A stretch of 64,000 nucleotides of DNA, from positions 62,001 to 126,000 of the forward strand of contig NZ_CADIJL010000014.1 in NCBI RefSeq assembly GCF_902859695.1, given 5' to 3'. The stretch's first letter is position 1. Every line of letters begins with the position of its first letter. Of the stretch, positions 35,160 to 43,242 are shown piece after piece. The notes below the pieces were generated by a model. That model worked only from the letters and a program-made list of their open reading frames with translations. It made no database searches and was not told where the DNA came from. A program made the translations under genes and the position numbers. Origin of the DNA: Achromobacter ruhlandii. Lineage in GTDB: Bacteria > Pseudomonadota > Gammaproteobacteria > Burkholderiales > Burkholderiaceae_B.

Positions 35160-36353
35160 ATGGAATTCAGCCAGTACAACGTCAACGCCCTCATGGAGAT
35201 CACCTCCCGTCCGGACCTCGTGTTCGTGCGCGGCCAGGGGTCCTGGCTGGAGGATCACGCGGGCAAGCGATACCTGGACTTCGTCCAGGGCTGGGCCGTC
35301 AACACCCTGGGCCACAGCGCCCCGGAAATGCAGAAGGCCCTGCTGGACCAGTCCAAGCTGCTGATGAACCCGTCGCCGGCGTTCTACAACCTGCCCTCCA
35401 TCGAACTGGCCACCCGCCTGACCGGCGCCTCGGTCTTCGACCGCGTCTTCTTCGCCAACAGCGGCGGCGAAGCCAACGAAGGCGCCATCAAGCTGGCGCG
35501 CAAATGGGGCCAGGTCAACAAGAAAGGCGCCTACAAGATCATCACCATGAACCACGGCTTCCACGGCCGCACCCTGGCCACGATGTCGGCGTCGGGCAAG
35601 CCGGGCTGGGACAAGATGTTCGCGCCGCAGGTGGAAGGTTTCCCGAAGGCCGAGATCAATGATCTGGAATCGGTGCGTAAGCTGATCGACGACCAGACCG
35701 TCGCCATCATGCTCGAACCCGTCCAGGGCGAAGCCGGCGTCATCCCGGCGACGAAGGAATTCATGCAGGGCCTGCGCAAGCTGGCGGATGAGCACAAGCT
35801 GCTGTTTATTGTTGATGAAGTGCAGACGGGGATGGGGCGTACGGGGACGTTGTTCGCTTACCAACAATCCGATGTGGTGCCGGACATCATGACGCTGGCG
35901 AAGGGGATTGGTGGTGGGGTGCCGCTGGCTGCTTTGTTGGCCCGTCAGGAAGTTTGCGTGTTCTCGCATGGGGACCAGGGTGGCACGTATAACGGGAATC
36001 CGTTGATGGCGGCAGTGGGGGTGGCGGTGTTTGACGCCCTGGCTGCGCCGGGCTTCATGGAATCGGTGAATGCGCGTGCCAAGCAACTGTCCGAAGGGCT
36101 GCTGGCTTTGTCGGCCAAGTATGGGATGAAGGGCGAGCGCGGGATGGGCCTGCTGCGCGCACTGATCATGGATCGCGATGACGGCCCCGCCATCGTCGAA
36201 GCTGCGCGGAATTTGACGCCGAATGGGCTGCTGCTGAATGCGCCGCGGGGGAATTTGCTGCGGTTTATGCCGGCGTTGAATGTGACGGTTGAGGAAATCG
36301 ATACGATGCTTACGCAGTTGGATGGGTTGATTGCGCAGGTGCGTAAGGCCTGA
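35160..36353 (+). CDS. argD: Acetylornithine transaminase / class III aminotransferase
   Basis: The 397-residue PLP enzyme interconverts N-acetylornithine and N-acetylglutamate semialdehyde in arginine synthesis. Motifs are FFANSGGEANEGAIKLARKW, HGFHGRT, the metal/PLP aspartate in IVDEVQTGMGRTG, and the PLP lysine in LAKGIGGG. AGGAA precedes the ATG. Codon style changes near 35800: the first half uses mostly C-ending codons, the second many GGG, GGT, TTG and TTT codons, though the protein stays intact. Closely related succinylornithine or 4-aminobutyrate aminotransferases are alternatives. Confidence 0.9.
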   Translation: MEFSQYNVNALMEITSRPDLVFVRGQGSWLEDHAGKRYLDFVQGWAVNTLGHSAPEMQKALLDQSKLLMNPSPAFYNLPSIELATRLTGASVFDRVFFANSGGEANEGAIKLARKWGQVNKKGAYKIITMNHGFHGRTLATMSASGKPGWDKMFAPQVEGFPKAEINDLESVRKLIDDQTVAIMLEPVQGEAGVIPATKEFMQGLRKLADEHKLLFIVDEVQTGMGRTGTLFAYQQSDVVPDIMTLAKGIGGGVPLAALLARQEVCVFSHGDQGGTYNGNPLMAAVGVAVFDALAAPGFMESVNARAKQLSEGLLALSAKYGMKGERGMGLLRALIMDRDDGPAIVEAARNLTPNGLLLNAPRGNLLRFMPALNVTVEEIDTMLTQLDGLIAQVRKA

Positions 36354-36375: not shown

Positions 36376-36402
36376 AAAGGGTCGCTTGCGACCCTTTTGT
36401 TT
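36376..36402. terminator. Bidirectional terminator between argD and the nuclease operon
   Basis: AAAGGGTCGC / GCGACCCTTT with a TT loop is followed by TGTTT on the plus strand and preceded by AATCAAA, so it can end both argD and the convergent minus-strand operon. Confidence 0.88.
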
Positions 36403-36441
36403 GCGCGATCGTGTACTTTGGATTTTCAGTGTCAATTACGC

Positions 36442-37794
36442 TCACTGGTTCAAGTGCTTTTTGGTGAGCACGTCCAGTAGAGTTCCGCCTGGCGAGAGAC
36501 TGATAGATGCATGGCGATGAGCTAGCGCGACGGGAACAACTGAGTTTTCATAAAGATCGAACTCTAGGTGGCGGATCAGCGAAAATGCCCGCGCAAGCCA
36601 GTGATCGTAGTTGGTAGGATCAGCCTTCATGCCAGAAAACTGCTTGCGATTGTGCTTGTTCGAAAATGGGTAGGCTAAGCAAACGTCAAAGATCCTGCCA
36701 CTATCCGTCTTATATATGAAATCCTGCCCGTAATAGGTTTCGTGGCCGAAATTATCGGTCAACGGCGCGATGCCATTAATGAACTTCGCACGGTAATCGT
36801 CCGAGACGGGGCAAAAGGTGCCGTTTCTGAGGTGTGGTGAAAGAGCGCGGGCATGCTCCATGACCATGCCGTCTTTTTGAAGTCCCATAATCAAAGGGGA
36901 CGGGAGATTCGCCGCAGTGCACCGTTCGAATAGTTTGTTATAGAACGCCTGAATTGAGGCATGGTATCGCGCAGGTTGACCAAACAGGGCGAGAGGTCCG
37001 TCCACCATAATCGCAGCGCCTGCAACGGTCGAAAGGCTGTTGTCTGCCATTACTTTCAGGAGCGTAGCCAGTTGGAGGTGTTCGACCGCGTTCATGAAGC
37101 GCGTGATCGCTGATGAGTTATCTCCTTGGTCAGATATTTGCTCGTGGATGCGAAGAGAATCTGTGACATAAACAACCGTGTGGCAACTCGTGCACTTTCT
37201 TTCGTCTTCCCCAGCCTTGAAAAAATGAGGGCCAGCCGCTCCGCATGACGGACACCGTTCAATAGCAATTTGCCCATCCTCTAGGTGATAGAGCATGTCT
37301 TTGACTGAGAAACCTCCTCTAGGGATTTGCGTTCGTTCGTCGGTGAGCTGCTCGTACACCGCTCGACGAAATCCGTCCTGTACTTGCATGCCCTTATATC
37401 TTACGTTCGAGCCAGGCAAAGTAAACGCGACAGCACGAGCTTTGTTGTGCAAGCTCGCCGCTGCGTACGGGTCAACAAATGGGATCCCTGGTTTTACTAG
37501 CCCGTTATAGTCCCCCATATCGAATGCCATAAAGCTCGTCTTCACGTAGCCGATCTGGGTTGAAGGAAACTTCTTGTCGATCGGTTCGGAATAGGTGCTT
37601 CCATCTGAGGCAATAACTAACTTAGGCAGCTCATTGCACATGGGTGCTCGTTGAAAATTACCTGCAATTTCTTTGGCGGCTTGTTCTCCTGGCTGTGTTA
37701 AATAAGCGCATTCCGCAAGAAATTTTCTGACGTCGTCATTTTTGACGATGTCTATATGACCTCGCTTACTCGCCTGTTGTCCTTCATAGGGCAT
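36442..37794 (-). CDS. NurA-domain nuclease-like protein with internal zinc ribbon
   Basis: This 450-residue protein shows the NurA pattern: an N-terminal metal-binding aspartate in IASDGST (Asp64), a central VDGPLALFG (Asp265), and a C-terminal HRHASISLS segment (about residues 427-436). NurA is a 5'-3' exonuclease that works inside a HerA hexamer on DNA ends. Unusually, a CPSC...CTSC zinc ribbon (Cys181-Cys204) lies between the catalytic segments. ATG 37794 is chosen over the TTG at 37818: GGAGAACGT precedes it and it begins 13 bases after the HerA stop. It is third in a Dam-HerA-NurA operon that is AT-richer than its surroundings. The family call is from motifs and partner. Confidence 0.78.
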   Translation of the reverse strand: MPYEGQQASKRGHIDIVKNDDVRKFLAECAYLTQPGEQAAKEIAGNFQRAPMCNELPKLVIASDGSTYSEPIDKKFPSTQIGYVKTSFMAFDMGDYNGLVKPGIPFVDPYAAASLHNKARAVAFTLPGSNVRYKGMQVQDGFRRAVYEQLTDERTQIPRGGFSVKDMLYHLEDGQIAIERCPSCGAAGPHFFKAGEDERKCTSCHTVVYVTDSLRIHEQISDQGDNSSAITRFMNAVEHLQLATLLKVMADNSLSTVAGAAIMVDGPLALFGQPARYHASIQAFYNKLFERCTAANLPSPLIMGLQKDGMVMEHARALSPHLRNGTFCPVSDDYRAKFINGIAPLTDNFGHETYYGQDFIYKTDSGRIFDVCLAYPFSNKHNRKQFSGMKADPTNYDHWLARAFSLIRHLEFDLYENSVVPVALAHRHASISLSPGGTLLDVLTKKHLNQ

Positions 37795-37807
37795 ACGTTC
37801 TCCGTGC

Positions 37808-39877
37808 TCAATCGGCAATAGAAGTAATTGCAGCGAGCTGTTCCTTCAACTCGGCGGGCGTGAAACGGTTGATCTGAACAGGAACGACGAATGGCGATGA
37901 TAATGTCTTGATGCGAGCAAAGCCTACATCCTGTGCAGACTTTAATGAGGTGACAAAATCAGAAAAGTCGTAGAACTTAGCAAGCGCTTTTAATTCGTCA
38001 TCATTGTTTAGATGCGTTACGAACCAATTCTCAGTATTCGCAAGGATATTCGGATGAATCGAGGATGGCTCTTGCGTTGCATAAACAAAGGCAATTTTCG
38101 CCTTTGCCCCTTCTTTGGCGATACGCGGCCATGTCGTCGTGAGCTCCTCCTTTTTACCGATGAGGTTGTGCGCCTCTTCAACGTAAATCACGATGTTCTG
38201 TAGATGTTGGCCCGAATTGTACGCCCGGAAGGATGTGTCGAAAATATGTTGCGCAATTCGCTTGGAGAGAACGGAACGAACTTCAACGGGTCCCACGGAA
38301 AGGTCGAGTATTACGATCTTCCCTGCCCATAAGTGATCAACGACTTCTTTCACGACGTCGCCCTGACGCCTGGATGAATGATACTCCTTGCAGCCGATCA
38401 GTGCTCTATAGCCGCGAATCGACGTGCCGGTGGCGTTTTCCCTCGCAAGCACATTTAGATAGGACTCCATCATCGGATCTACCCAAGGGTTTCCCGATGA
38501 GCTTGTAAAGCCCTTTTGGGGCTTGCTATCAGCCCTTTGTTGCTCACGTAGCTCATAATTCAAGCGACGGATGGTGATAAAGAAATCAACTGCGTCCTTA
38601 TGCGAAAGAGCGCAATAGCCTTTGCCGACTGCTTTGAGACCTGAACACCCCGCCCCTTTTGCCGCTTCCAGAAGCTCATTGTTTGCAGGGAACCTAACCA
38701 CAGAGTTAACTGGCACAGGAAAGCCGGCTGCATAGAGGATTGTTTGAAAGACTGCTACGCGCTGCTCCCAACGCTTGTGGTTCGAAAGATCAGTGGCATC
38801 GGGTTCTTCGAGTCCAGAATCAAGGAACTGTTGCAAATCGGTCTGGCCCCGGAAGGGGTCGTTGATCAACAGTTTTGAGATCAGATTTAGAGCTTCGGCT
38901 GGCTGTTCATAGAAGTTGGTCCGCAGGTCGAGGAACCCCGGTGTATCGATAGCCCGATAGCGAACGCATTGGCCCTCAAAGACCTCAGCAATGGAGCTTC
39001 CATCGTCTTGTTGGTTTGCATTGGAATATTCGCCGTTGAGATCAAAAATAATCTGACCAATACTGACTCCGTCCCGCTTTCCGGCGATAGCCACCGAAGC
39101 GACCGTAGTCTTGACGGTGTTCGACTTCCCTGTACGCGTCATACCTAATACGGCGGTACGTCTTGCCAAAAAGTCCGAGGGCTGAATAAGGAACGGTACT
39201 TTGGGCTCGACGCTACTTCTATGTAGCCTTGAGGTTGACGTGTAGCGTACGGTTCCGATGGAAATTGAGCTTGGCGCCGATTTGAAGCCGGCTGCCTTGG
39301 CGTCGGCTGCCATGCTCTTCAAGCGATCTGCGTTGACGTGATTGACGATCTTGTCGAGGGCATCGGCTCGAGGCTTGTAGACACGCAGGCGAGTCGACGC
39401 AAAGTAATTCTCGACATCGCTGCCTAACTTAATTTCACCGTCGTCGTCCAGAAAGAACGTGCCCAAGATGCGGCACTCTAGACCGCCATACTGCAGTTCG
39501 CTTTGGGTCATCGGATCGAACCCATCCGTCTCGCTCGAAGGATATCGTTCGTTGACTTCGCGGCGCTGGTTGTGTTCGATTCGTGTCTGTAACATCTCTC
39601 CATCAGATGGTAGACGGGCTGGACCAACGACTCGCAAAAGCACCAACTCATTATCAAAGTGGGGGGTGCCCGCCGGATTCTGTGGATTTATCGCAGTCGC
39701 TACCAAGAAGCTATTATGTGGAATACCAGCCACACGAGCCTTCCAATTGTCATTGGTTAGCACGGCTGCCTTTTGGAAATCGATTCCATATACATAACCA
39801 ACATGGTTGGTGTCGAAATCACCTACAAGTGATATGAGCTTATTTGGAAGAACTGCGTTCTCGAAGACGTTGGACAT
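37808..39877 (-). CDS. HerA-like hexameric ATPase (FtsK/HerA superfamily)
   Basis: The 689-residue protein has an N-terminal HAS-barrel-like region, Walker A GMTRTGKSN (residues 245-253), Walker B with YVEEAHN (about 565-571) and a downstream FVYATQEPSSIHP sensor region, all typical of HerA/DUF87 translocases. HerA pumps DNA to a nuclease partner; the next gene encodes that partner type (NurA). GGAGAG precedes the ATG. It lies between an adenine methyltransferase gene and the NurA gene, with gaps of 29 and 13 bases, so the three are one transcript. Anti-phage or DNA-end processing roles are inferred from context. Confidence 0.88.
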   Translation of the reverse strand: MSNVFENAVLPNKLISLVGDFDTNHVGYVYGIDFQKAAVLTNDNWKARVAGIPHNSFLVATAINPQNPAGTPHFDNELVLLRVVGPARLPSDGEMLQTRIEHNQRREVNERYPSSETDGFDPMTQSELQYGGLECRILGTFFLDDDGEIKLGSDVENYFASTRLRVYKPRADALDKIVNHVNADRLKSMAADAKAAGFKSAPSSISIGTVRYTSTSRLHRSSVEPKVPFLIQPSDFLARRTAVLGMTRTGKSNTVKTTVASVAIAGKRDGVSIGQIIFDLNGEYSNANQQDDGSSIAEVFEGQCVRYRAIDTPGFLDLRTNFYEQPAEALNLISKLLINDPFRGQTDLQQFLDSGLEEPDATDLSNHKRWEQRVAVFQTILYAAGFPVPVNSVVRFPANNELLEAAKGAGCSGLKAVGKGYCALSHKDAVDFFITIRRLNYELREQQRADSKPQKGFTSSSGNPWVDPMMESYLNVLARENATGTSIRGYRALIGCKEYHSSRRQGDVVKEVVDHLWAGKIVILDLSVGPVEVRSVLSKRIAQHIFDTSFRAYNSGQHLQNIVIYVEEAHNLIGKKEELTTTWPRIAKEGAKAKIAFVYATQEPSSIHPNILANTENWFVTHLNNDDELKALAKFYDFSDFVTSLKSAQDVGFARIKTLSSPFVVPVQINRFTPAELKEQLAAITSIAD

Positions 39878-39906
39878 GCTCTCTCCACTGATGCGCTTGA
39901 TGTTTG

Positions 39907-40878
39907 CTATGTTCGAGATGCGGTGGCTGCCACCGAGAGGGGGAAGCGCAGAGCATTGGCTCCGCTGGCGCGTGATTTGCGAGGTTCTTTAATACTCAAC
40001 CCTACGTGACCATTTTTGCCACTGGTCGCGGCCGGCAGTCGTTTCATGTTTGTGAAGACGAGTTCTCGGCCGATGAAAGCACAACCGCCTAAAGGATGTG
40101 TCGAGTATGTGTTGTCGATCACGCGCGCCTTGCTCGTCACCGTTGAGTAAAGATCACGGACTTCTTGAGCATCGTCATACGACAACAGCCAAGGTCGGTT
40201 TAGCTCGCTGAGGAAATTGCGCAGGTTCGCGTGCTCGTCCTCGTCGAAGGTGTAGCCATATAGCTGTTCGGCTTTATGATAATAAGGCGGGTCCAAATAG
40301 AACAGCGCGCCTTTGTTCGAGGAAAACTGCTCACAGAAATCGGCCCAATTTTGATTGCCTACCGTCACTTTGCCGCGTAATTCGGAAAGTGAACGTATCC
40401 GCTCGGATAGGCGTTGGCGATTGAAGCGTACTCCGATATTGATGCTCTTTTGGCCCCAACCCCCAAGTGGTCCGGACTTGTGAATGATTCCATTGAATGA
40501 TGTCCGATTAAGGTAGAGGCACTTCAGAGCAGCATCGCGCTGAGTTTTTGGTTTGAGGGCCTTCTGTCTTTTCCATTCTTCTACAGAAAGGGGAATTTCC
40601 AGTACTTGATTCGCCAGCCATTCAGCGCCAATCTTAGAGAAGACGGTAGACCAAAGCTGTGAGATCAGAGGGTCCGCGTCGTTGATGGCAATCTCATCTA
40701 CCAATCCATCTTCGAGCAAGGCAATAGAAACGCTCGCCCCGCCACAAAAGGGTTCGACGAAAAGACGAGGTTGCCCAACGTTGAGCGCAATGGCTTTCGC
40801 AATGAAATCGCGGAACCTCGCTTTACTACCAGGATATCGCAGGATGCTTCTTGTGTTAGTGGCCAAAAAATTCTCCAC
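39907..40878 (-). CDS. D12-class DNA adenine N6-methyltransferase (Dam-like)
   Basis: The 323-residue methyltransferase has the S-adenosylmethionine motif FVEPFCGGAS (residues 40-49), the catalytic DPPY (196-199) and YPGSKARF near the N terminus, the Dam/MboIIA-type order. The last 35 residues are basic and outside the usual domain. It starts at GTG 40878 with AAGGCGAGG upstream; no ATG is available nearby. As first gene before HerA and NurA it could mark self DNA so that the nuclease spares it. Its recognition sequence is unknown. Confidence 0.92.
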   Translation of the reverse strand: MENFLATNTRSILRYPGSKARFRDFIAKAIALNVGQPRLFVEPFCGGASVSIALLEDGLVDEIAINDADPLISQLWSTVFSKIGAEWLANQVLEIPLSVEEWKRQKALKPKTQRDAALKCLYLNRTSFNGIIHKSGPLGGWGQKSINIGVRFNRQRLSERIRSLSELRGKVTVGNQNWADFCEQFSSNKGALFYLDPPYYHKAEQLYGYTFDEDEHANLRNFLSELNRPWLLSYDDAQEVRDLYSTVTSKARVIDNTYSTHPLGGCAFIGRELVFTNMKRLPAATSGKNGHVGLSIKEPRKSRASGANALRFPLSVAATASRT

Positions 40879-41264
40879 CCTCGCCTTTTGTTGAAACAGC
40901 TACACGAATTTTCGCGGGATGAGCCGATGCATTTCTCTACAACATGATTCGCCCGATACGTTACCAGATTGCGTACCGCTTTCGACGGATTAATGGCCTT
41001 CGAACTCGCGATTAGATCAAAGCCAGCATGGTCGAAAGAAAAATAAGACCGCCTCCCCTTACTGTATGCATGCCTTGCCCCCGCGGAGTGAAATCATGCG
41101 AAGCGCGACTTTTCCATTCCTTAGAGCTGCTCACCTTCATGAGATTTGCCGCGATGATGAGGATGTCTTCGCTCAGGTGCGACGGGTCTACGGCTTGTTG
41201 GGAAATTATCGTGAAGTACACTAGATAATATTTATGAATGTGGTTCGGGGGGGCAGGCCATATT
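40879..41264. other. Gene-free spacer in the defence island
   Basis: This 386-base AT-rich gap separates the Dam-HerA-NurA operon from the AbiC-like pair and must contain the promoter of the former. Short frames exist on both strands (41012-41221 minus, 41028-41228 plus), but they lie over each other, lack recognisable motifs and have no convincing ribosome-binding site. Confidence 0.5.
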
Positions 41265-42005
41265 CTAATATAGGTTGAATTCTAATCCAATCTCTTTCAA
41301 TGTGTCGTTAAGCTCGGAGTGTGTCGTGAGGAAATTAGCATAAGGACCCGTTGTAAATTGGGCTGCGATTAAAATTAGTCGAAGCTGCGAAAAGTCGGTG
41401 AAATTAACGAGGGTTTGGAAATGGCTTTTTCGATCGGTCAAAGAAAATCCTTCGGTATCGCTTAGCCTGTCAGTTACCAGCTTTACGGCGAGATAGAAAG
41501 ACCGAAGCGTTCCCCAAACGCAATCCTTGTAGTCCACTTCTTCTAAATATTCTGCTATATCTTCATTGGGCGCACCTCCTTCTCGTAAGGCCTCTATTTT
41601 TTCTTCAAGTTGCAAGATTGCTTCAGTGCCGTATATTTTATGGCTATCTTCATTTGCATTAGACCTTATGGATAGATTGCTGATTTGCGATTTTTGAGCG
41701 TCTATTACGTTGAAGAAGAGAAGGTTAAAAGAGCGAAATTTCTCATATTGTTTGGTGTTTCTAATTTCTGTTCTAAGGTCTTGGTTTGCCTGGTTTTGAA
41801 GATTTAAAGATTGAATAAGACATAATAGTGCGATGAAGCTTAAGAGGGGGTTTAGCATACCTCCAAAATAATCTCCGAACTGACCCCATTTGTCGGTTTC
41901 AGAGGATATGCTATATCCTAGCTTAATATAAAAGTGGTAGGCGTAAGCGCCTGTGGTAAGAAGTACAGCTCCTGATGCGGTTGCAATTAAGATCTTATAT
42001 CTCAC
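41265..42005 (-). CDS. Putative phage abortive-infection protein (AbiC-like membrane protein)
   Basis: The 246-residue protein has two N-terminal membrane segments (ILIATASGAVLLTTGAYAYHF; LNPLLSFIALLCLIQSL) linked by WGQFGDYFGGMLNPLLSF. This is the hallmark of the putative AbiC family, in which a membrane anchor precedes a cytoplasmic helical domain (QKSQISNLSIRS, TLRSFYLAVKL). Lactococcal AbiC blocks phage by killing or arresting the host. The GTG start overlaps the stop of the preceding gene (GTGA, 42002-42005), so both proteins are made together. Family assignment is by motif memory; function is inferred. Confidence 0.7.
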   Translation of the reverse strand: MRYKILIATASGAVLLTTGAYAYHFYIKLGYSISSETDKWGQFGDYFGGMLNPLLSFIALLCLIQSLNLQNQANQDLRTEIRNTKQYEKFRSFNLLFFNVIDAQKSQISNLSIRSNANEDSHKIYGTEAILQLEEKIEALREGGAPNEDIAEYLEEVDYKDCVWGTLRSFYLAVKLVTDRLSDTEGFSLTDRKSHFQTLVNFTDFSQLRLILIAAQFTTGPYANFLTTHSELNDTLKEIGLEFNLY

Positions 42006-42823
42006 TCTTGGTATCCTTCTATGAGATACTTAATTACGGGTCCATCGATGAGATTTATTGGTCTAACTAAGATGTTCAAGTAAACCCAATCCTTGTCTTC
42101 TAATCCGTTGTTGTAATCGAGATTGTTTGAAAAGGCTTTCTTTGCTTTGAAACTTACCGCTTTGTAGCCGGAAGCAAAACTAAAAGGCAAAGTGTGGTTA
42201 GCACCTTCCTCTTGCAGTCGGCCATTCCCCGTATGTATGTTGAGACGCGTAATCATTGCCGATAGGACGAATTTTTGCTTTCCTTCGACTGCTTTGAAGA
42301 ACTTAGCGGTATTCTGGTCGAAGCGCGCAAGCATCGTCTGGTCATCTCGATTGCGTCTGAAGCGGAGTTTTACGTCGTAATCAAACTTTATCGGGACTTC
42401 GTGAATGTTCTTTACCGACGATTTTCGTAGTTGATTTGTTAGAGCCTCAGAAACTTCACCAAGCCCTTCAACAATTTTTTGAGCTTTCGGACTTAGATCT
42501 TTAGAATCAACGTTCATCGCTTCATTCAAGTAAAAAGCAATGAGTTCGGAGAAGGTCTCCCGGCCAATTCGATTGAATGAGGACTGCAAGTCACCATCGT
42601 GAATTTCAAGCTGGAAAACGTGTCCGTACGATCCCTTGAAGCTCTGTTTTAGTAAAGTTCGAACCTTGCTTTTATGGTTTAAGCGTTCCGGGACCTGCTT
42701 GGTCAGTATGGACTCTGAAATATAGCGGATTGCATCGGATGACCCTTGCAAGGTGTCCAATCCGGTTTTCATGTCGACTTCATGCTGAGGAGTTTCAATC
42801 ACCACGTCTAAGTTGTACGCCAC
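42002..42823 (-). CDS. Uncharacterised protein paired with the AbiC-like gene
   Basis: The 273-residue soluble protein begins VAYNLDVVIETPQHEVDMKTGLDTLQGSSDAIRYISESIL and ends with a barrel-like FKAKKAFSNNLDYNNGLEDKDWVYLNILVRP segment. It resembles a family of hypothetical proteins found in accessory regions (possibly DUF7946), but I cannot name a function. I start at GTG 42823, preceded by GGAG nine bases upstream; a TTG at 42838 is the alternative. It overlaps the AbiC-like gene by four bases, which argues for a two-component system, perhaps sensor plus membrane effector. Codon use is AT-rich. Confidence 0.65.
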   Translation of the reverse strand: MAYNLDVVIETPQHEVDMKTGLDTLQGSSDAIRYISESILTKQVPERLNHKSKVRTLLKQSFKGSYGHVFQLEIHDGDLQSSFNRIGRETFSELIAFYLNEAMNVDSKDLSPKAQKIVEGLGEVSEALTNQLRKSSVKNIHEVPIKFDYDVKLRFRRNRDDQTMLARFDQNTAKFFKAVEGKQKFVLSAMITRLNIHTGNGRLQEEGANHTLPFSFASGYKAVSFKAKKAFSNNLDYNNGLEDKDWVYLNILVRPINLIDGPVIKYLIEGYQE

Positions 42824-43242
42824 GACTCTTTGCTCCAAGTTGGCCCATTAGTAAACGAAAGTTTCTTTTTACTACGAAAAATCTTTTTCCGAAAGAGCGC
42901 TATTTTTTATCGGCTAACCACCGTCATCTGTCATTGATGTATCGGTGGCTAGCACTATCTCGGCGTTCAAGGAATGGCGTATTTCTAGGGTCATGACGTA
43001 AATCGGTTTGATCTCTGAGCCCTGAAAAAGCTGCCTGTCTTTTGAAGATACGCAGTTGATCTCACCTTACCGCTTCGGCTTCGAATTCGGTTTTCAGGTG
43101 GTACGCCCACGAAGATTCCGCGCTAGAGGAAAATGGAGTTTCGAGATGACGATGTCTTCGATGTCAAAACCGTCACGCCCGACATACAAAGCGAAAGCTC
43201 TGCCGTATACTCCCTCCACTATCGACCAACGGTAGCCCCGGT

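Follow-up and report, generated by a model that had tools for sequence, protein, structure and literature searches.

TdpABC is a phosphorothioate-based defence system of thermophiles, in which the TdpAB complex degrades unmodified DNA and is restrained by the modification. TdpAB structures have been solved (8wet and 8wfd), and chain G of 8wfd is presumably TdpB. Here, we analyse a minus-strand operon of Achromobacter ruhlandii, which lies in a stretch of 64,000 nucleotides (contig NZ_CADIJL010000014.1, positions 62,001 to 126,000; hereafter the window, numbered from its first letter). According to the list of open reading frames (ORFs) of the window, it encodes, in order of transcription, a D12 methyltransferase, a HerA-type ATPase and a NurA-type nuclease. 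We consider it likely that this operon is a restriction-modification (RM)-like anti-invader system, in which a translocating HerA-NurA nuclease takes the part of the restriction enzyme and which represents the base-methylation counterpart of Tdp.

TdpAB is the nearest solved relative of the window HerA and NurA, and in both systems a restriction complex is combined with a DNA-modifying enzyme. Relatives of TdpA and TdpB are encoded side by side in the window; both proteins match TdpAB best by structure, and for HerA a sequence profile also ranks TdpA first. In contrast to Tdp, the modifier in the window operon is a base methyltransferase, and the window NurA comprises 450 residues including a zinc ribbon, compared with 358 resolved residues in chain G of 8wfd. 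The Pfam matches of the five proteins encoded in the surrounding low-GC island, two of which remained unassigned, include no sulfur-transfer family, and the genome elsewhere was not searched for TdpC. Membership in TdpABC was set aside on account of the methyltransferase as modifier and because a TdpC was not identified in the island.

The HerA-NurA complexes of archaea and Deinococcus agree with the window operon in their two protein families and in predicted fold, but the latter is distinguished by its linked methyltransferase, the zinc-ribbon insert and a sporadic occurrence. The complex of Thermococcus kodakarensis consists of six HerA and two NurA subunits, takes up DNA at a flexible four-helix bundle and exonucleolytically cleaves both strands of double-stranded DNA whatever the end, and an antiviral role has been suggested (PMC12977600). 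Elsewhere, HerA-NurA is listed under repair (PMC5797428). In Thermus, an operon of the element ICETh1 encodes a IIG enzyme, a NurA-like nuclease, the HerA/FtsK protein TdtA and an N4/N6 methylase; DNA donation requires TdtA, NurA and the IIG enzyme, while loss of the methylase has a minor effect (PMC5365140, PMC7767461). By its published description, the ICETh1 operon, which includes TthHB27I/Tth111II, resembles the window operon in uniting a HerA/FtsK protein, a NurA-like nuclease and a methylase in one operon; it differs by the IIG enzyme and an integrase, by acting in transjugation and by a NurA-like protein of 377 amino acids. Pfam models gave no match to an integrase, a relaxase or a IIG enzyme among the five island proteins.

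SIR2-HerA and DUF4297-HerA likewise couple HerA to an effector and are among the next-best structural matches of the window HerA, but their effectors are SIR2 or DUF4297 instead of NurA, and these two-gene systems have been described without a methyltransferase. DUF4297-HerA degrades host and phage DNA (PMC11291478). Membership in either system was rejected, as no SIR2 or DUF4297 match occurs among the five island proteins. The methyltransferase has component B of PD-Lambda-5 as its best PADLOC model, and this system was cloned using a host that carries a deletion of the mrr region (PMC9519451). It was rejected in turn, since only B and no PD-Lambda-5_A match is present among these proteins, which also show no match in Pfam, PADLOC and NCBIfam to an endonuclease of type I, II or III next to the methyltransferase. 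HerA/FtsK capture systems with other partners have also been reported (PMC10853773, PMC12839542). A defence system composed of methyltransferase, HerA and NurA was not found described in the literature searched, which was available in part and did not include subscription journals and bioRxiv, and a description elsewhere is possible. The gene set had been put forward as a candidate undescribed anti-phage system in the initial annotation, made from the DNA sequence before this analysis. This stands insofar as no description as a defence system was found, but the restriction half is precedented by TdpAB, and a similar set from Thermus ICETh1 has been published.

Identity of the three proteins

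The operon consists of the following genes:

39907 to 40878, minus strand: D12-class DNA adenine methyltransferase of the RYPG subgroup, 323 amino acids, GTG start, with a DPPY motif.
37808 to 39877, minus strand: HerA-family translocase, 689 amino acids, with Walker A at residues 245-253, an EE pair at residues 567-568 and a mostly helical segment (residues ~330-510) between them.
36442 to 37794, minus strand: NurA-family nuclease, 450 amino acids, with D64, E238 and D265 and a zinc ribbon (C181, C184, C201 and C204) between the first two of these acidic residues.

The nuclease ORF itself spans 36442-37818 (minus strand), but the alignment favours the ATG at 37794 as the likely start. With this start, the intergenic gaps are 29 and 13 bases, which agrees with the three tightly spaced minus-strand genes initially annotated. 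The motifs named there (DPPY, GMTRTGKSN, YVEEAHN, CPSC/CTSC and Asp64) are all present in the ORFs.

The methyltransferase matches PF02086 (D12) with an E-value of 4.9e-21 and PD-Lambda-5_B with an E-value of 1.9e-66. Residues D196, P197 and P198 are invariant in 28 aligned homologs, and the family profile matches the structures of DpnM and Dam. By sequence, with both the PF02086 match and the DPPY motif in place, the protein is a D12 DNA adenine methyltransferase, as had been proposed from the motif. Sliding identity along 21 close pairs of methyltransferases gave no sign of strong specificity switching; several D12 pairs have a mild identity low near residue 150, and the remaining dips are located at the N-terminus.

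HerA matches DUF87/HerA in Pfam (E-value 1.2e-10), and its Walker A residue K251 as well as E567 and E568 are invariant in 64 homologs. An AlphaFold model of the monomer (pLDDT 90, pTM 0.87) retrieved TdpAB chains as best matches in Foldseek (E-value 2.7e-27), with SIR2-HerA at 5.8e-20, and a sequence profile searched against the Protein Data Bank (PDB) found TdpA as best match (1.2e-34, compared with 3e-19). The protein is accordingly assigned, by sequence and model, as a DUF87/HerA core with intact Walker motifs, and the earlier recognition of a HerA-like ATPase is borne out by family match, invariant Walker residues and fold.

Within HerA, sequence identity drops at residues ~330-510 in 11/11 close pairs, with bin means of 0.59-0.74 compared with 0.82-0.98 elsewhere; the segment was chosen after inspection of the data, and 11 of the 12 listed pairs were computed. 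The model shows mostly helices in this part of the protein between Walker A and the EE pair, which on these grounds and by analogy probably forms the helix bundle at the DNA entrance. Its rapid evolution is a possible clue to the reader of a methylation mark, although an arms race with phage inhibitors offers an alternative cause. The milder dips of the methyltransferase, which lie at other places, speak against a simple co-switching of its target site with the HerA segment. Divergence of the segment is strongest between the Helicobacter loci L063 and L075 (0.29-0.60 per bin), whose NurA and methyltransferase proteins are 91-92% identical.

Assigning the nuclease required more than one approach. 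The window protein has no match to PF09376 (NurA), either alone or in the Pfam-model scan of its genome, but 32/81 members of its family do, with a best E-value of 5.6e-31, and the missed match probably reflects a limit of the Pfam model. D64, E238, D265 and the four cysteines are invariant in a 72-row NurA alignment, and Asp64 and Cys204 are nearly invariant in the 81-row alignment, which includes truncated and more distant sequences. We take the three acidic residues to be equivalent to the known NurA catalytic residues. The NurA profile found only zinc-ribbon and other partial matches among PDB sequences (best E-value 0.0092) and no TdpB sequence at E-values up to 1, so a fold search was needed. 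In this search, the AlphaFold model (pLDDT 88, pTM 0.87) matched chain G of TdpAB with a Z-score of 20.0, NurA of Sulfolobus solfataricus with 13.4 and other NurAs with ~11.5, compared with up to 9.3 for RNase-H-fold proteins of other families. The third protein is therefore classified, from sequence relatives and predicted fold, as a NurA-family protein with an inserted zinc ribbon and as a predicted nuclease; misassignment to NurA was rejected on the PF09376 matches of the 32/81 relatives and the fold. Thus, the NurA-like nuclease of the initial annotation holds by its relatives and its fold, while its own sequence gives no PF09376 match.

Linkage of the methyltransferase to HerA and NurA

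A search of genome contigs with the NurA alignment revealed 161 relatives among 206 candidate stretches; the best 80 of these relatives were used, with a leaning towards closer ones. The window itself and loci from plasmids, phages, viruses and further genomes were added to give the 93 loci examined; L001-L004 and L094, short copies of places already counted, were left out of the locus counts. HerA or a piece of HerA adjoins NurA in 88/93 loci, and three of the other five start at a contig end. The initial annotation had made its reading depend on conserved co-occurrence of the trio in other genomes, and a methyltransferase of one of two families indeed adjoins the HerA-NurA pair in 75/93 loci (32 D12 and 43 N4/N6-type), with a divergence linked to that of NurA (see below). 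Four classes, assigned by motif patterns and checked against Pfam for eight proteins, comprise 30 D12 enzymes of the RYPG subgroup, 2 Dam-like D12 enzymes, and 23 linear and 18 circularly permuted N4/N6-type enzymes, with 2 unclassed. The commonest gene order is methyltransferase-HerA-NurA; elsewhere, the methyltransferase follows NurA in either orientation.

Within ~2 kb of the pair, methyltransferase genes of these two families occur at about 20 times the density seen farther out, and 73/92 loci have one there (L011, near-identical to L009, was left out of this test). Their density is 0.224 per kb near the pair (74 matches in 330 kb) and 0.011 per kb farther out (8 in 720 kb), whereby the zones for adjacency and density counts were set after the locus table had been seen. 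Chance neighbourhood was rejected on this difference, as measured with models biased to these loci. The divergence of the methyltransferase correlates with that of NurA (r = 0.61, 0.70 and 0.97 in groups of 25, 20 and 17 loci; Mantel tests with 2000 permutations, p = 0.0005 each). In the same three groups, HerA and NurA divergence correlate with r = 0.97, 0.83 and 0.97. On a NurA tree of 86 rows, calculated by a quick method that warned of long branches, the methyltransferase class mostly tracks NurA clades, with at least four class changes, and the side or orientation of the methyltransferase changed at least seven times while adjacency was kept; short or duplicate rows were left out of the tree and the Mantel tests. 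These sequence comparisons show that the three genes tend to travel together.

The family occurs, among others, in Pseudomonadota, Bacteroidota, Actinomycetota, Chloroflexota, Cyanobacteriota, Campylobacterota, Bacillota, several candidate phyla and archaea, and it is rare per group (4/274 genomes of a class sample, 1/398 of a phylum sample and 2/61 relatives, the own genome being counted each time). A relative from the order of the host contains the HerA-NurA pair with an N4/N6-type gene.

Genomic setting, mobile copies and defence neighbours

The operon is part of a larger variable region:

36396 to 43201, no strand assigned: variable segment that contains the operon together with two further genes; it is bordered on the left by an aminotransferase gene (35160-36353) and on the right by a conserved flank.

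The GC content is ~48-54% in the operon, 41-54% in the island and 62-72% on both sides, which confirms the AT-rich setting noticed initially. The left flank with the aminotransferase gene is present in 37/37 genomes of the same genus and the right flank in 31/37, in several of them only as a short or distant piece, and the NurA family is found in 1/37. In 20 relatives of the genus with both flanks (L160-L179), the interval (2.8-17.9 kb as retrieved) differs in its cargo, whose GC content is in large part below that of the flanks. When the largest cargo protein was scanned in a sample of 10 of these 20 loci, PADLOC matches with E-values of 1e-10 or lower were obtained in 7/10, namely HamB (Hachiman), LmuB (Lamassu, three times), Tmn, HEC-06 and a type II endonuclease, with no match in three. 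Profile scans of 65 of the 93 listed cargo ORFs, together with two window proteins, revealed among the 65 defence reverse transcriptases and Mrr-type nucleases alongside proteins of other kinds (transposase, TonB receptor, AraC regulator). The interval between the aminotransferase gene and the right flank is a hotspot of the genus, much of whose cargo consists of defence genes.

Connections to mobile elements and to other defence genes are also found outside the genus. The trio lies beside an integrase in two near-identical Vibrio phages, and a HerA search of viral contigs yielded six loci, with a D12 gene nearby in 5/6. NurA was detected in 5 plasmid and 2 phage records and HerA in 6 and 2, respectively. 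Among the neighbouring genes, of which 87 of 140 listed ORFs were scanned, the NurA gene runs into a Septu PtuA gene in the Bacteroidota loci L052, L053, L061, L065 and L066 (E-value 2.1e-207 or better). PtuB follows PtuA in L053, the one locus tested singly (5.8e-114). In these five loci, Septu appears to form a single composite operon with the trio.

Some further features of these loci were observed. The annotation of one of the Vibrio phages splits HerA into two frames (L011, 1309-3502), while HerA is whole in the near twin L009; in a Deferribacter plasmid, HerA is interrupted by an IS200/IS605 element (L008, 5108-8906). In L027, L028 and L030, NurA is followed by a gene for a large UvrD-like helicase and a gene for a protein of ~270-290 amino acids; searches identified a UvrD helicase and a PD-(D/E)XK nuclease after NurA in L028 and a UvrD helicase in L030. 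A small XRE-type helix-turn-helix regulator is encoded upstream of HerA in the three annotated records among the cyanobacterial loci L005, L006, L010, L038 and L044. The island in the window contains two further low-GC minus-strand genes (41265-42838), encoding proteins of 246 and 278 amino acids, the former with a hydrophobic N-terminus as judged by eye. Neither has a PADLOC or NCBIfam match or a Pfam match above cut-off, and the two genes are perhaps another small defence cassette. A search for att-like repeats at the island ends found few short two-copy repeats, none of which joins both ends, and the signal in promoter and terminator scans was no higher than in shuffled sequence.

Proposed mechanism and its alternatives

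In an RM-like mode of action, six HerA and two NurA subunits would form one machine, as suggested by the Thermococcus kodakarensis complex. This machine would take up double-stranded DNA and pump it through the HerA ring, and the NurA dimer would cut both strands. The methyltransferase would mark the host DNA, and the marked DNA might not be taken up, might stall translocation or might not be cut, with the result that unmarked phage or plasmid DNA would be destroyed. The mode of action would resemble that of TdpABC, except that a methylated base would replace the phosphorothioate as the mark. This mark might be read by the helical HerA segment that evolves fast, by the zinc ribbon in NurA or by the methyltransferase itself as a bound subunit. 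The hotspot location, the copies in phages and viral contigs and the coupling to Septu in five loci strengthen the case for defence, and we infer that the trio serves both defence and self-protection. Together with the conservation of the trio, the same lines of evidence support, at the level of a proposal, the initial suggestion of a methylase that marks self DNA and a HerA-NurA pair that degrades unmarked DNA.

Several observations weigh against this reading. A similar gene set is used by Thermus in DNA donation, and the linked methylase has only a minor effect there. A target-recognition domain was found in neither HerA nor NurA. The models of the density test were built from methyltransferases of the same loci and are therefore biased, other families were uncounted near or far, and motif-only methyltransferase candidates of other kinds occur far out in six loci. 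As a control, NurA loci with strong PF09376 matches were taken from genomes that also hold the family; 0/4 contained a methyltransferase, and this control is weak, with a HerA-like gene in only 1/4. Moreover, 18/93 loci have no methyltransferase of the two families in range. Six of these end near the pair at a contig edge (L033, L051, L059, L067, L082 and L089), L022 ends soon after NurA, and L047 and L074 have short or partial NurA genes and no HerA. An N4/N6-type gene is found 4.9 kb away in L016 and 3.5 kb away in L028, and L021 has instead HsdR- and HsdM-like (type I) genes directly after NurA. The cyanobacterial loci L005, L006, L010, L038 and L044 and the Helicobacter locus L081 extend for 6-9 kb on both sides and show no methyltransferase. 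At such loci, a methyltransferase encoded elsewhere may act, another component may take its place, or none may be needed.

The loci without a methyltransferase in range also speak for a different explanation, abortive infection, in which a restrained HerA-NurA would be freed by a phage trigger and would destroy all DNA, with the methyltransferase limiting self-damage or acting as antitoxin. DUF4297-HerA sets a precedent by its degradation of host and phage DNA (PMC11291478), the Septu gene coupling in five loci would fit, and phage could be sensed by a face formed by the rapidly evolving HerA segment. Yet the frequent and co-diverging linkage of the methyltransferase better suits self-marking, and there is no known trigger, so that we regard abortive infection as rather improbable. 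For a module of DNA transfer or element mobility, HerA would pump DNA to another cell, NurA would prepare the ends and the methyltransferase would protect the transferred DNA. The Thermus ICETh1 set, with TdtA, NurA and the IIG enzyme needed for donation, and the presence of some copies on plasmids or phages agree with this. However, the five island proteins contain no integrase or relaxase match, the site in the host genus is a hotspot rich in defence genes, the trio is coupled to a Septu gene, and among the solved structures compared, HerA is nearest to TdpA; a transfer function appears quite unlikely.

A role in DNA repair, with an end-processing HerA-NurA and a methyltransferase that tags or regulates, has in its favour that HerA-NurA has long been proposed to act in this process. 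It is difficult to reconcile with the sporadic occurrence (1/37 in the genus, 4/274 in the class sample and 1/398 in the phylum sample, own genome included) and with the absence of Mre11 or Rad50 family matches among the five island proteins, and HerA-NurA has been argued not to make the resection overhang (PMC12977600). We therefore hold a repair function to be very improbable and retain the RM-like system as the preferred explanation.

More tentatively, the operon might represent a widespread and still unnamed class of RM systems, characterized by a ring-shaped translocating nuclease in place of a site-specific endonuclease, a base-methyl group as stop signal, a mark set by D12 or N4/N6-type enzymes and the HerA helical segment, probably at the DNA entrance, that would gate entry. 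If true, this would establish a new methylation-guarded class of immunity that spans bacteria and archaea, and it would join the puzzle of the purpose of HerA-NurA with the discrimination of modified self from unmodified foreign DNA by Tdp. It would also raise the question whether a ring translocase can read a base-methyl mark while moving. Finally, it would provide a function for many genes that are labelled only as NurA, DUF87 or DNA methylase.

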